Shown here: in pieces, positions 11,550 to 19,127 of the stretch
Layout of the letters: every line of letters begins with the position of its first letter
How positions within the stretch are numbered: the stretch's first letter is position 1
Assembly: GCA_016208355.1 (NCBI GenBank)
Contig: JACQYE010000031.1
Span: forward strand, 1 to 33,670
From: Chloroflexota bacterium
GTDB lineage: Bacteria > Chloroflexota > Anaerolineae > Anaerolineales > Villigracilaceae
DNA length: 33,670 nt
Direction: 5' to 3'
Made by a program: the position numbers and the translations under genes
Notes under the pieces: model-generated
Told to the model about the DNA's origin: nothing
Database searches by the model: none
The model's input: only the letters and a program-made list of their open reading frames with translations

Positions 11550-13895
11550 ATGAGTTTGTTTTTCGGTCAAATCTTCACGCTCCTGACGGCCCCGCCGGGG
11601 AATTTCATTTACCATATTGTTCTGGCTTTCTCCATTGCCGGGGCCTTGCAGGGGGCGATCCACCACTGGCGGACGAGCGGATTCCCCCAGGTGCGGCGGA
11701 CAGTGATCGGGCTGGGCATCTTGCTGGGATTGCAGTTTGTGCTTTTCCTCGTCAGTGGTTTGGCCTGGCAAGGATTGTTCGATCCGGGCGTGGCGCTACC
11801 GCCGCTCGACCGGGCTGTTTCCCTGCTATCGCTGGTCTGGATTGCCTGGCTGTGGGCTTTTCCGGCGCCTGTGCGCCTGGCCGACGCGGCCAGCGGTTTG
11901 CTCAGCCTGCTGGGTTTGACGCTCTTCGGCCTGACTTACGTGTTCAATTTCAAAGGGGCGACGGGCGGTTTCAACGCCTCGATCTTCGAGACCATCTGGC
12001 AGGTCCTCAGCCTGGCGGTGGTTTTGCTGGGTGGGGTGGGGTTGTCCCTGCGGCGGCCCAACGGCTGGGGCAACGGCCTGGCGATGCTCATCCTGGCTTT
12101 CCTGGGACACCTGGCCACCCTGGCCTGGCCTTTGGAAGGAGACTACCCCGGTTTCCTGCGGGTAGGCCACCTGGCAATGTTCCCCATCCTGCTGACGCTG
12201 ACCCAGCGTTTCCCTTCTTTACAGGGAAAGGAACACCGCAAGCCAACGAGCACGAAGCGCAAAGCAAAAGCAGAGGAGTCGGCACAGCAGGAGCGCCGGC
12301 GCTACAGCACTGACCCGAAGACTTTCCAGTCCCTCATCAGCCTGGCGGCCGAGGCCTCCTCGGAGAAAATCTGTAATTACCTGACACGCGGCATCGCCCA
12401 AGCCATGCTGGCTGACTTGTGTTTCCTGTTGATGATTGACAATGATAAGAATCTGACAATCACCTGCGGCTACGACTTGATCCGCGAGGAAAGCCTGGCA
12501 GGTACGACCGTGGACAAGGATGCCATCCCGCTGCTTTCCAATGCCATCCAACGCGGCCGCCCCCTGCGCTTGCCGGCCAGCAGTACATCCTCGGACTTGA
12601 AAGGCCTGGGACAGGTGCTTGGCTTGAGCAACGCCGGTCATCTCCTGAGCGTGCCGATCGTCTCGCACGAGCGCGGACCGTTGGGCGGGATCCTGATCCT
12701 GTCACCGTATTCCAACCGCCTGTGGAGCGCCGAGGACCAGACCTATCTTTCCAACGTTGCTCCGCTGCTGCTCCCGGTGCTGGAACGCGGCGAGCGTATT
12801 GCAGCCCTGGAGATGGAACGCGATAGCGCCCGGCTGGAGGCCAAGTCGGCGCAGCAGGAAGCCCTGGAGATAAAGCGCAAGTCAGAGGAGGCCATCAAGG
12901 AAGCCGGGACCTCGGGCGGGAAGACTACCCAGTCACAATCGCAGGGCGAGAATATGGCCGCCCTGCTGGTAATGCAGGAAGAGGCGCAGAAGACGATCGC
13001 GCAACTGCGCAGCGAAAACGAGCAGTTGCGTCTTTCAGGCATTTCCCTGCCCGATGGCTCCGACCAACTGGAACGCGACCTCCGCCAGACTTTGGAGGAG
13101 ATGGCGCGTATGCAAAATTCCCTGGCCGAGGCCAATATCAAGATCCTGGAACTGGAAAGCCGTCCTACGTTACCCATCACCAGCGAGCAAGTGGAAGTGA
13201 TTGCCTCTATTTCTCAGGAATTGCGCCAGCCGATGTCATCCATTGTTGGTTACACTGACCTGCTGCTCGGCGAATCGGTTGGCATCCTGGGAGCGCTCCA
13301 GCGCAAGTTCGTTGAACGAATCAAGGCCTCCACGGAACGTATTGGCGGCCTGGCGGACGACCTCATCCAAATCACCAACCTGGACACCGGTCACATGGAA
13401 TTCAAGCCTGAACTGATTGACTTGAATCTCATCATTGATAATGCCATGGCTTACACCAGCACGCAGATCAGGGAAAAGAACATCACCCTGCGGCTGGATA
13501 TCCCTGAGTCCCCGCCGCAGGTGGAAACCGACCGGGACGCCCTGCAACAAATCCTCATCCACCTGCTCCAAAACGCCACCGCTGCCACCCAGACGGAGGG
13601 CACCATCACCCTGCGCGTCCAGGTGCAGGAGGATGAAGGCAAAAATTTCCTTTCCATCCAGGTAGCGGATACCGGCGGTGGGATCGCCTCCGATGATATC
13701 CCGCGCGTCTTTTCCCGGCGCTACCGGGCCGAGCATTCCCTCATCCAGGGGGTGGGCGACACGGGCGTTGGCCTGTCCATCGCCAAAACGCTGGTGGAGG
13801 CCCAGAGCGGACGCATCTGGGTCGAAACGGAAGCAGGCTCAGGGTCCATGTTTAGCGTTATCCTGCCTGTCCTCCCGGTGGAAGTGGAAGAATAA
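11550..13895 (+). CDS. 7TM-GAF-coiled-coil sensor histidine kinase homolog with H-box His replaced by Gln
   Basis: Hydrophobic N-terminus with about 7 TMs, GAF-like region, ISQELRQPMSSIVGYTDLLL (SQELR instead of SHELR), N-box LLQNATAA, G-boxes VADTGGGI and GVGDTGVGLSIAK. Confidence 0.9.
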   Translation: MSLFFGQIFTLLTAPPGNFIYHIVLAFSIAGALQGAIHHWRTSGFPQVRRTVIGLGILLGLQFVLFLVSGLAWQGLFDPGVALPPLDRAVSLLSLVWIAWLWAFPAPVRLADAASGLLSLLGLTLFGLTYVFNFKGATGGFNASIFETIWQVLSLAVVLLGGVGLSLRRPNGWGNGLAMLILAFLGHLATLAWPLEGDYPGFLRVGHLAMFPILLTLTQRFPSLQGKEHRKPTSTKRKAKAEESAQQERRRYSTDPKTFQSLISLAAEASSEKICNYLTRGIAQAMLADLCFLLMIDNDKNLTITCGYDLIREESLAGTTVDKDAIPLLSNAIQRGRPLRLPASSTSSDLKGLGQVLGLSNAGHLLSVPIVSHERGPLGGILILSPYSNRLWSAEDQTYLSNVAPLLLPVLERGERIAALEMERDSARLEAKSAQQEALEIKRKSEEAIKEAGTSGGKTTQSQSQGENMAALLVMQEEAQKTIAQLRSENEQLRLSGISLPDGSDQLERDLRQTLEEMARMQNSLAEANIKILELESRPTLPITSEQVEVIASISQELRQPMSSIVGYTDLLLGESVGILGALQRKFVERIKASTERIGGLADDLIQITNLDTGHMEFKPELIDLNLIIDNAMAYTSTQIREKNITLRLDIPESPPQVETDRDALQQILIHLLQNATAATQTEGTITLRVQVQEDEGKNFLSIQVADTGGGIASDDIPRVFSRRYRAEHSLIQGVGDTGVGLSIAKTLVEAQSGRIWVETEAGSGSMFSVILPVLPVEVEE

Positions 13896-14621
13896 ATGCG
13901 GATTGTGCGGCAGGTCCTGCCGGGTATCCTCGTTGCCCTGGTTTCCGTTGTTCTCATCCTGGGCGGTTTTACCCTCTCCCTTGCTGAGGGGAACGTGACC
14001 GCGCCAACCCGGACCCTGACCCAGACCCAATCGCCGACTGTCACTCCCACCTGGCAGCCTTTTACGCCACCTCCTCCTTCTCCCACCGTTCCCTCTCCGA
14101 CCACGACCCTTACCCTGCCTCCCCCGCCCACGACCTGCCCGCCGCCAGCGGGCTGGGTTGCCTACGGGGTACAGTTCGGCGACACGCTGGAGGTGTTGGC
14201 GACGCGTTACCATACCAGCGCCGAGATGCTCCTCCAGGCCAATTGCCTGGTTTCCGACAGTCTCCTGCCTGACAGCGTGCTCTACGTCCCGCCCGTGTCC
14301 ACCCGTACCCTGGCGCCGTGCGGGCCGCCGCCTGGATGGGTGTTGTACCCGGTCCAACCCGGCGATACACTCTATCGTCTCAGCCTGGCCTACGGGATCA
14401 CCGTCCGGCAATTGCAAAATGCCAACTGCATGGGTAATTCTACGATCATCATCGTCGGCAAATGGATTTACGTGCCGCCCTGGGCGCCTCACACCCCCTC
14501 GCCGACAAGCACTCAGGTTTTCACCCCCACATCCACCTGGACCGTTATCACGCCTTATACCCCAACCTCCACTGGAACGCCTACGGACACGCCCACGGCC
14601 ACTACTGTTACGCCACCATGA
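13896..14621 (+). CDS. Membrane-anchored protein with two LysM domains and Thr/Pro-rich linkers
   Basis: GVQFGDTLEVLATRYHTSAEMLLQANCL and PVQPGDTLYRLSLAYGITVRQLQNANCM; ATG directly abuts the kinase stop. Confidence 0.9.
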   Translation: MRIVRQVLPGILVALVSVVLILGGFTLSLAEGNVTAPTRTLTQTQSPTVTPTWQPFTPPPPSPTVPSPTTTLTLPPPPTTCPPPAGWVAYGVQFGDTLEVLATRYHTSAEMLLQANCLVSDSLLPDSVLYVPPVSTRTLAPCGPPPGWVLYPVQPGDTLYRLSLAYGITVRQLQNANCMGNSTIIIVGKWIYVPPWAPHTPSPTSTQVFTPTSTWTVITPYTPTSTGTPTDTPTATTVTPP

Positions 14622-14648: not shown

Positions 14649-15647
14649 ATGCGTTCCCGACTGTTCTTTACTTGCGCCATGCTCTTTTTCCTGCCCGCCT
14701 GCGGTATTAACCAGGCGGGCCAACCCACCTCGCTGCCGACGGTGACGCTCCCGCTCAACCCCACGCCATCCCTGACTCCTTTCCTGCCGGACGGGGAAGG
14801 TTCCTTATCTATACCGACGCGTCCCTTCCCAACCCTTGCTGTTCTTCCCATCAGCACCGAGACGCCCCCGCCTGCAGAACTGATCCCGCTCCCGGCGGGC
14901 CAGGTGAGCATCCTCCTGCTTGGTTCGGACCAGCGCCCGGGTCGCAGTGATTTTCGCACCGACGTGGTTGTACTGATGATCCTCCGCGCCGACGGAGCGG
15001 TCAGCCTGGTCTCCTTCCCGCGCGACCTCTATGTCTACCTGCCGGGCCGGAGTATGAGTCGTATCAATGCGGCTTATGAATATGGAGGCTTCGAACTGTT
15101 CGCCCAGACCTTGGACTACAATTTTGGTCTCCGCCCTGACCATTTCATCTTGACCAATTTCAGCGGCTTCATGGCCATCGTGGACAGCCTGGGCGGTGTG
15201 GACGTAAACGTCGGCCAGGCGCTTTCCGACGCCCGTACCGGCTACCCCGACGGATTCACCGTCTATGCCGGTATCGTCCACATGGACGGCGAGACCGCCT
15301 TATGGTACATCCGCTCGCGTGCCACCTCCAACGACTTCGACCGTTTGCGCCGCGCCCAGGAAGTGCTGGTGGCCATCGGGCAGAAATTGCTTACCCTCCA
15401 GGGATTGGCACACATCCCCGAACTCTACCAGGCCTACCAGGGAACAGTTGTCACCGACCTGAGCGTGGACGGGTTGCTCGCCTTCCTGCCGCTGCTGCAA
15501 GGGGCGGACGTCAATCGGGTGAGCCGCTACGCCATTGCCCCGCCTCTGGTCACGCCATGGATCGAGCCATATACGGGTTCCTATTACCTGCTCCCTGATC
15601 CGCTTGCCATCCGGGCCATACTCCAGCAAGCAGTCGGTATTCCATGA
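14649..15647 (+). CDS. LytR-CpsA-Psr (LCP) family lipoprotein
   Basis: Lipobox FFLPAC; ILLLGSDQRPGRSDFRTDVVVLMIL, SFPRDLYVYLP, RINAAYEYGG, VDSLGGVDV, ALWYIRSRATSNDFDRLRRAQEVL. Confidence 0.9.
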   Translation: MRSRLFFTCAMLFFLPACGINQAGQPTSLPTVTLPLNPTPSLTPFLPDGEGSLSIPTRPFPTLAVLPISTETPPPAELIPLPAGQVSILLLGSDQRPGRSDFRTDVVVLMILRADGAVSLVSFPRDLYVYLPGRSMSRINAAYEYGGFELFAQTLDYNFGLRPDHFILTNFSGFMAIVDSLGGVDVNVGQALSDARTGYPDGFTVYAGIVHMDGETALWYIRSRATSNDFDRLRRAQEVLVAIGQKLLTLQGLAHIPELYQAYQGTVVTDLSVDGLLAFLPLLQGADVNRVSRYAIAPPLVTPWIEPYTGSYYLLPDPLAIRAILQQAVGIP

Positions 15648-17110
15648 TGAAACGCCTTAGTTTCACCCTGCTCCTGTTGCTTACTGCCTGTGGGACCTCC
15701 GTGGGCTCCGGGGCCGGGCTTCCCCAGTCTACTCCCACACCTTTGTTCCTCGTTACGGTTGGGGAGGATGCGACACCCACCGCCACTCCCTTCCAACCGG
15801 TGCTTGACGAAACGGTCACCCCATTCGAACTTTTTCCAATCCCCCCGCTCTCTGGTACCCCGACTCCCTTCGCCCCGCCTGTCTTCGACCCGAACGCCGT
15901 CCTGCCCACCGCCGGGACGCCAGTTTCGTTCTATGCTCCGCCCTATGCCCCGAACCCGGCGGTTGTCCTCACCGACGACCAGACTGTCACCTTCCTCCTG
16001 CTCGGTTCCGACCAGCGCAGCAGCACCCAGACCTATTTTCGCACCGATATTCTCATCATCGCCGCCCTGCGGCCGGCCACCATGCAAGTCTCGCTCATCT
16101 CGCTGCCACGTGACCTGTACGTCTACATCCCTACTGTCGGCATGGACCGCGTCAACACCGCGTACGAATATGGCATCATGTACAACTATCCCGGCGGCGG
16201 CGCAGGCCTGCTAAAGGACACCATCCTCTACAACCTGGGTGTGCGCATTGACCATCTTGCCATCGTGGACTTCGACGGCTTCCGCAAGATCGTCAACACC
16301 CTCGGCGGAGTGGACGTGCCCGTCTACTGCGCGTACACCGATTGGCACCTCATCTCCCCGACTCTGGACCCGGAAAACGAAGATAACTGGGAGATGTACA
16401 CCGTTGGGCCGGGGCTGGTGCACATGGACGGCGACCTGGCGCTCTGGTACGCCCGTTCCCGCTCGAAGTCGTCCGATTTCGACCGCGGCCGTCGTTCACA
16501 GGAAGTCTTGCGCGCCCTTTACACCCGCGCTGTCTCGACCGACGCCATCAGCAAGATCTCCGAGTTATATGATGACGTCAGTTCCTCCGTCATCACAGAT
16601 CTGGGACTGGGCGACCTGCTTTCCCTGGCTCCCCTGGCCCTGGAAATGAACAACGCCGATATCCGCAGTTACTACGTCGGGCGCGGCTATGTCTCCAGTT
16701 GGATCACCCCGGGCGGCGCGAGTGTCCAACTCCCCAACGGCCCGGCCATCCAATCCATGATTCAGCAGGCGCTTGCCCCGCACGAAAAGGCTCCCGAAGA
16801 GGAGGCCTTGACCGTGGAGGTCCGCAACGGGACGGCTAATCCGGGCTGGGATGCCTTGGCTGCCGAGCGGTTGAACTATGCCGGTTACGAGACCCGTCTT
16901 GCCCCCGCCGACCGCACGGATTACGCCCAGTCCCTGCTCTACGACCTGACTGCATCGCCTGACCTGGCGCAGGTCGGCATACTGTTGTCCATGCTCGGCC
17001 TTGATCCGGCCGCTTTCGTCTCCGCGCCGACGCAAAGCGATGTACCTTACGTACTCATCCTGGGTAACGATTACCAGCCGTGCTTTAATCCGGCGGGCGC
17101 TACGCCGTAG
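15644..17110 (+). CDS. LCP family lipoprotein with C-terminal LytR_C-like domain
   Basis: Lipobox LLLLTAC; FLLLGSDQRSSTQTYFRTDILII, LPRDLYVYIP, RVNTAYEYG, VNTLGGVDVPV, ALWYARSRSKSSDFDRGRRSQEVL; C-terminal EEALTVEVRNGTANPGWDALAAERLNYAGY; ATGA overlap with the preceding gene. Confidence 0.92.
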   Translation: MMKRLSFTLLLLLTACGTSVGSGAGLPQSTPTPLFLVTVGEDATPTATPFQPVLDETVTPFELFPIPPLSGTPTPFAPPVFDPNAVLPTAGTPVSFYAPPYAPNPAVVLTDDQTVTFLLLGSDQRSSTQTYFRTDILIIAALRPATMQVSLISLPRDLYVYIPTVGMDRVNTAYEYGIMYNYPGGGAGLLKDTILYNLGVRIDHLAIVDFDGFRKIVNTLGGVDVPVYCAYTDWHLISPTLDPENEDNWEMYTVGPGLVHMDGDLALWYARSRSKSSDFDRGRRSQEVLRALYTRAVSTDAISKISELYDDVSSSVITDLGLGDLLSLAPLALEMNNADIRSYYVGRGYVSSWITPGGASVQLPNGPAIQSMIQQALAPHEKAPEEEALTVEVRNGTANPGWDALAAERLNYAGYETRLAPADRTDYAQSLLYDLTASPDLAQVGILLSMLGLDPAAFVSAPTQSDVPYVLILGNDYQPCFNPAGATP

Positions 17111-18035: not shown

Positions 18036-19127
18036 TCAGATCGGATATTTGCTGGCTTTCAAATCTTCGAGGTCATTGAGATCAAGCCCTTCGGTGACCA
18101 ATTCCACCAATTCTTCGGCGTCGAGATCCGGGTAGGCAAGACGGGCATCCCGCAATGTTTCGAGGGCAATATCATGGTTCGCCAGTTCCACAAGAGAATC
18201 TGCATCGAGGTCGCTTAGTCCCACTGCATGCACAGCCTGGACGAACTCTGGCGTGACATTGTTGTTGGAGAGTTCGACCAGTTTATCCACATCCAGGTCC
18301 TGGATGCCTGCTTCGCGCATGGCTCTGATAAACCCGGGAGTCACATTGTGGTTTGATAGTTCAACGAGTTCATCCACATCCAGATCCTTGATCCCGGCCT
18401 CGCGCATACCAAGGATGAACTCCGGGGTGACATTGTGGTTCGAGCATTCGACCAGTTCATCCACGTCAAGGTCTTTGAGTCCTGCATCACGCATGGCGCG
18501 GATGAATTCGGGCGTGACATTATGATTCGAGCACTCGACCAGTTCGTCCACGTCCAGATCGTTGACCCCCGCTTCGTGCAGGGCATGGATGTACTCCGGT
18601 GTGACGTTATGGTTGGAAAGTTCGACCAGCTCATCCATATCAAGACTCTCCATACCGGCAGCGCGCAGTTCGCGGATGTGGTCGGGTGTGACGTTATGGT
18701 GGGAACATTCGATTAGTTCATCGAAATCAAGGCTATCCAGCCCGGCAGCGCGCATCTCGCGGATATATTCGGGAAGAACCCCCTGGATTCGCAGGTTGAT
18801 CAGTTCATCCAGTTCAACGTCATCGAAACCCAGGGTGGCAATCTCACGCACGAACCCGGCAGTGACATCATGCAGGCGCATCTCCTGCAATTCGGATAAC
18901 TTGACGCGCTCGATGCCCAGTTTGCGTAGTTCAGCCGCCAGGCTGGCGCCTTCGTTGGGCGAGTAGCCGGTGGCGGCCACCTCGGCCGGGTTCACCCGCC
19001 CCGGCTGGGGTTTCGGTCTGGGATTGCTGGCTGCCAAGGCCTTCAACAATTCTTCCCCCTGGGAGGCCGTGATTTTCCCTTGTGAGATCATCTCAAGCAC
19101 TTGCATTTGTTCACTTTGGGTTGGCAT
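18036..19127 (-). CDS. 29-aa tandem-repeat protein with N-terminal SHOCT-like helical motif
   Basis: MLEMISQGKITASQGEELLKAL-type N-terminus; repeat consensus NHNVTPEFIRAMREAGIKDLDVDELVELS. Confidence 0.85.
   Translation of the reverse strand: MPTQSEQMQVLEMISQGKITASQGEELLKALAASNPRPKPQPGRVNPAEVAATGYSPNEGASLAAELRKLGIERVKLSELQEMRLHDVTAGFVREIATLGFDDVELDELINLRIQGVLPEYIREMRAAGLDSLDFDELIECSHHNVTPDHIRELRAAGMESLDMDELVELSNHNVTPEYIHALHEAGVNDLDVDELVECSNHNVTPEFIRAMRDAGLKDLDVDELVECSNHNVTPEFILGMREAGIKDLDVDELVELSNHNVTPGFIRAMREAGIQDLDVDKLVELSNNNVTPEFVQAVHAVGLSDLDADSLVELANHDIALETLRDARLAYPDLDAEELVELVTEGLDLNDLEDLKASKYPI
18180..18875 (-). repeat. Eight 87-bp (29-codon) tandem coding repeats, with degenerate flanking units
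   Basis: Eight gapless 29-aa units from LHDVTAGF... to NNNVTPEF...SLVELA; a 28-aa ninth unit follows. Confidence 0.9.

Follow-up and report, generated by a model that had tools for sequence, protein, structure and literature searches.

The protein encoded at 11550..13895 is best read as a member of an ancient pseudo-histidine kinase clade that spans class Anaerolineae. It keeps the HisKA-type DHp-CA architecture and carries Gln556 in place of the phospho-acceptor His. Its gene sits in the window, by which we mean the whole 33,670-nucleotide stretch of DNA analysed; the source genome is a draft of 205 contigs and 90.6% completeness, whose closest named relatives belong to Anaerolineales. The evidence presented here comes from comparing sequences. 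The parts of the protein discussed below are as follows.

11550..13895, + strand: putative pseudo-histidine kinase gene, 781 aa (ORF list, Pfam, homologue matches)
11550..12200, + strand: N-terminal membrane region, residues 1-217, about 7-8 predicted helices (hydropathy peaks; low-confidence model helices)
12315..12794, + strand: GAF-like input domain, about residues 256-415 (model pLDDT about 80; Pfam GAF at the equivalent place in homologue L104)
12729..13157, + strand: long helical linker, probably coiled coil, residues 394-536 (model, low confidence)
13182..13385, + strand: DHp (HisKA) helices, residues 545-612, with near-invariant ELRQPMSSIVGYTDLLLGESVGILGALQRKF (Pfam, alignments)
13215..13217, + strand: Gln556 codon CAG, phospho-acceptor position (DNA reading; alignment to solved kinases)
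13227..13229, + strand: Gln560 codon, H+4, the phosphatase T/N position (family alignment)
13533..13892, + strand: CA (HATPase_c) domain with altered N box, His671, Asn675 and Ala679 (Pfam, alignment)
Residues 707-712 and 734-742, + strand: G1 box DTGGGI and G2 box GVGDTGVGL of the CA domain (alignment)

In the Pfam search of the window protein, HisKA matched residues 548-614 (E 1e-11, 45.2 bits against a cut-off of 26.9) and HATPase_c matched residues 661-774 (E 3e-22, 79.5 bits against a cut-off of 26.4), while the GAF-like region gave no GAF match. A structure model built from seven sequences was poor (mean pLDDT 54, pTM 0.31, DHp region below 50), and its PDB matches were therefore not used as structural evidence.

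Glutamine at the acceptor site and the history of the family

At the H box the codons run gcc tct att tct cag gaa ttg cgc cag ccg atg tca tcc att, which encodes ASISQELRQPMSSI. As the preliminary description of this DNA had proposed, Gln556 occupies the acceptor position, where it aligns on the phospho-acceptor His of solved kinases such as HK853. His is found at this site in 100% of 100 diverse HisKA domains (PMC3510030), in 40/40 of our ordinary HisKA kinases (all those with an aligned site), and in the other HisKA proteins of the source genome wherever they could be aligned.

Matches at E <= 1e-60 occur in 112/201 genomes of the order Anaerolineales. Loci were taken from many of these genomes as well as from further orders of class Anaerolineae, giving a sample of genomes, and open frames within them were detected and aligned with a DHp-CA profile. 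After duplicate removal, 141 family proteins and 43 ordinary kinases remained, 40 of the latter aligned at the acceptor site. Across the family this site is Q in 110 proteins, N in 11, His in 5, S in 4, and K, E, A, T or L in the other 11, so that 136/141 are non-His. The 88 Anaerolineales members comprise 74 with Q and none with His; the 53 members from elsewhere in the class include 36 with Q, 9 with N, 5 with His and 3 with S. A conserved non-His acceptor residue across orthologues, the hallmark of a pseudo-histidine kinase, is thus present in one supported clade. That His is absent from the whole order sample, and that the five His members are nested among non-His relatives, answers the question raised in the preliminary description, whether Gln is fixed in a clade; it supports the view given there that the protein would be a pseudo-kinase with its ATP boxes kept and H-box autophosphorylation lost.

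The preliminary description had named sequencing error as the finding that would overturn this. Six relatives from named records, 56-74% identical to the window protein, carry Gln in 6/6 cases, and homologues in many separate genomes encode it by both CAA and CAG. Sequencing error is therefore ruled out, and the use of two codons indicates that the residue, not merely the codon, has been kept. A decaying or wrongly assembled gene, with Gln as a recent mutation or an error, has nothing in its favour beyond the draft state of the genome; the frame is open and without stops, conservation is strong and gene linkage is preserved. We give this explanation practically no credence.

Trees were computed without the acceptor-site and H+4 columns. 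The family forms a single branch apart from the ordinary kinases, with support of 100/100 in the careful tree of 102 proteins and an SH-aLRT of 100 in the quick tree of 184. In both trees the minimum is four switches between His and non-His; rooted on the ordinary kinases, these amount to one loss and three regains of His; when regain is forbidden, the careful tree requires 12 losses. The pattern is most simply explained by one old loss of His followed by up to three regains. Regain is likely rather than proven, given that His is easier to lose than to regain, that L180 comes from a single genome, and that many inner branches are weak. Codons of the Asn members (AAC or AAT) lie one base from the CAC of the His members.

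The His-bearing members L180, L237, L247, L244 and L250 branch from among relatives carrying Gln, Asn or Ser, and their genes continue to adjoin a LysM gene. From their placement, the catalytic His may have been regained in these proteins.

The H+4 position and the ATP site

Ordinary HisKA kinases carry T or N at H+4, the phosphatase residue; the window protein carries Gln560. The substitution divides the family: H+4 is Gln in 83/88 Anaerolineales members and T in 50/53 members outside the order. With Gln at both the acceptor site and H+4, the window's order has changed kinase and phosphatase residues alike. In CrdS, N375T retains partial phosphatase activity, and that of N375Q is not measurable (PMC3510030). 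Anaerolineales members probably cannot dephosphorylate a response regulator.

These residues bear directly on whether the protein might be a dedicated phosphatase, one that has lost kinase activity and still removes phosphate from a response regulator. An acidic residue at H+1 is retained in nearly all family members, and this, together with the Thr found at H+4 outside the order, is what such an enzyme would keep. Within Anaerolineales the Gln at H+4, equivalent to the inactive CrdS substitution, speaks against it, and we downgraded a phosphatase-only role there on that ground. For the window protein we regard it as very unlikely, and as more possible for relatives outside the order.

The ATP site had been described as looking intact, and in part it is. 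The N, G1 and G2 boxes are present, and the window protein retains N675, D707, G709, G711, G739 and G741. It also bears three family-specific changes that qualify the claim: the first N-box Asn is His671, the adenine-side Tyr is Ala679, and the first G of G2 is Asp737. Across the family the first of these positions is mostly His within the order, the second is Ala, Cys or Val, and the third is Asp or Glu. The core of N675, D707, G709, G711, G/S739 and G741 is jointly intact in 71/88 order members and 46/53 other members of the class; a broken G2 box occurs in 15/88 order members, and the majority of these retain the DHp motif. The window protein may bind ATP, and the intact core in most order members means that nucleotide binding or turnover may still matter.

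This core is also an argument that the protein could act as a kinase in trans, binding and using ATP to phosphorylate a His on a second kinase within a mixed dimer, or to phosphorylate itself at a different residue. Tyr568 (139/141) and Asp570 (133/141), both highly conserved close to the acceptor site, are compatible with such chemistry. The altered N-box Asn, adenine-side Tyr and G2, and the broken G2 of 15/88 order members, count against it. We consider a trans-acting kinase unlikely.

A conserved DHp surface and linkage to cell-wall genes

Conservation in the family extends to a stretch where ordinary kinases vary. Over residues 573-590, which cover the hairpin and the beginning of helix 2, mean conservation is 3.27 bits in the family and 1.38 in ordinary kinases; for the H-box helix the values are 3.33 and 2.72. 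Some of this contrast is expected, since the ordinary kinases are paralogues that differ in their partners, and it is safer to compare how the regions rank within each set. By that measure the hairpin and start of helix 2 are the least conserved stretch measured in ordinary kinases. At the HK853-RR468 interface, four of the five positions rewired in PDB 4jas map to near-fixed residues 564, 567, 571 and 590, and the fifth maps to residue 593, which varies within the order. The pattern fits one conserved partner and is not proof that this partner is a receiver; conservation spans the whole motif and does not single out receiver docking.

Two orthologues from one genus (L023 and L024; genus g8, family f2) lack the H-box/DHp segment altogether and have a degenerate G2, with an LCP gene still close by. 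Even the docking surface is therefore dispensable in one genus.

Three further genes follow the kinase gene on the same strand.

13896..14621, + strand: LysM protein with a hydrophobic N-terminus, its start abutting the kinase stop codon (ORF list, Pfam)
14649..15647, + strand: LCP (LytR-CpsA-Psr) protein 1 (ORF list, Pfam)
15644..17110, + strand: LCP protein 2 with a LytR_C domain (ORF list, Pfam)

LCP1 starts 27 bases past the LysM gene, and LCP2 overlaps LCP1 by 4 bases, so that the kinase, LysM, LCP1 and LCP2 genes look like one operon. The TPR gene upstream of the kinase is divergent, and a promoter scan ahead of the operon gave nothing above chance. Elsewhere in the window, 18036-19127 on the minus strand encodes a protein of many near-identical ELVELSNHNVTPEFIRAMREAGLKDLDVD-type repeats.

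To count linkage in the order we used loci with more than 3.5 kb downstream and scored LysM and LCP genes within 5 kb on the same strand. LysM and/or LCP genes lie downstream in 57/59 order loci (54 with LCP, 43 with LysM), so the association noted in the window is a conserved one. Outside the order LysM is found in 34/47 loci and LCP in 5/47; linkage to LysM thus holds across the class, and linkage to LCP is mainly a property of the order. It is this gene linkage that suggests a cell-envelope role for the window protein.

The absence of a response regulator beside the kinase gene, also remarked on earlier, extends to the whole contig, where no receiver domain was found, though the genome holds more than 50 above the cut-off. 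Nor was a receiver gene consistently near the kinase gene in the related loci examined, and an adjacent response regulator was accordingly rejected.

Other arrangements occur in the family. In L160 (6199-8525, +) and L162 (3298-8073, -), both of family f3, a putative pseudo-kinase whose acceptor residue is Ala or Ser adjoins a complete two-component pair, a receiver protein and a true His kinase encoded after it; no LysM/LCP gene was found nearby. In two Gln members, L252 (4792-7185, -) and L259 (4887-7199, -), the pseudo-kinase module is fused to an N-terminal receiver domain and to GAF and PAS regions.

Taken together, we think it reasonably probable that the window protein is a pseudo-histidine kinase whose DHp-CA module serves as a conformational docking platform for a conserved partner, tuning an envelope pathway. 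The membrane and GAF-like input part would drive the DHp-CA module, in which Gln556 would preclude autophosphorylation at the usual position. Instead, an incoming signal, perhaps together with bound nucleotide, would alter the way in which the conserved DHp helices engage a fixed partner (a receiver domain or a different kinase), and this docking would tune a cell-envelope pathway whose LysM and LCP proteins share the apparent operon. A binding-only transducer is the most economical reading, with DivL as precedent.

Extended to the whole family, the argument becomes more tentative. The Anaerolineae proteins could have dropped phosphotransfer at their origin and been kept since as binding-only transducers coupled to LysM-LCP wall genes. 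Later steps would then have been loss of the phosphatase residue in one order, disappearance of the ATP lid or DHp segment from some lineages, and return of the catalytic His in up to three. Several elements of this picture were absent from the preliminary description: the second Gln, at H+4; the changes in the ATP pocket; the near-invariance of the DHp helix and hairpin; the two orthologues without DHp; and how large and old the family is.

Relation to known histidine kinases and pseudo-kinases

Like ordinary HisKA sensor kinases such as HK853 of Thermotoga maritima, the window protein has HisKA and HATPase_c above the cut-off and a clear DHp-CA match. Unlike them, it lacks the acceptor His and the T/N at H+4, and its first N-box Asn and adenine-side Tyr are replaced. 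RetS of Pseudomonas aeruginosa is a regulator that binds another kinase; it is a hybrid protein and retains a His. RetS structures 6dk7 and 6dk8 match the window protein in sequence at E ~1e-20, and the likeness lies in the DHp-CA part as a binding module.

A search of the open literature for Gln-type pseudo-histidine kinases, or for an Anaerolineae kinase-LysM-LCP link, returned DivL, a pseudokinase version of Corynebacterium glutamicum ChrS, and otherwise unrelated work. DivL is the sole natural pseudo-histidine kinase detailed in the literature searched. The window family is large and ancient, belongs to another phylum, and has two catalytic positions changed in succession, with a few His members. 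It forms a natural series, with His, Asn, Ser or Gln at the acceptor site, T or Q at H+4, and the ATP lid or DHp segment present or absent, and is suited to asking how a histidine-kinase fold functions when phosphotransfer is gone and whether a dead kinase can be revived. For Chloroflexota, the family also suggests a regulator with ties to the LysM and LCP wall proteins.

DivL of Caulobacter crescentus (PDB 4q20) matches the window protein at E 2.7e-20. Both are HisKA-type DHp-CA proteins with a fixed non-His acceptor residue, with the other boxes largely retained and a conserved patch around the site. In DivL, Tyr replaces His, the boxes are kept and an ATP analogue is bound weakly; the protein is inactive both as a kinase and as a phosphatase; it nonetheless binds DivK~P, which it senses through its DHp-CA part (PMC4211667). 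The differences are equally clear. The acceptor site is Tyr in DivL (Ala in one species) and Gln in the window protein; input to DivL comes through PAS domains, whereas the window protein has a membrane and GAF-like input part and no Pfam match to PAS. DivL is alphaproteobacterial and binds DivK, whereas the window protein is from Chloroflexota, is linked to LysM and LCP genes, and has Gln also at H+4. By analogy, the window protein would act like DivL but is not a DivL.
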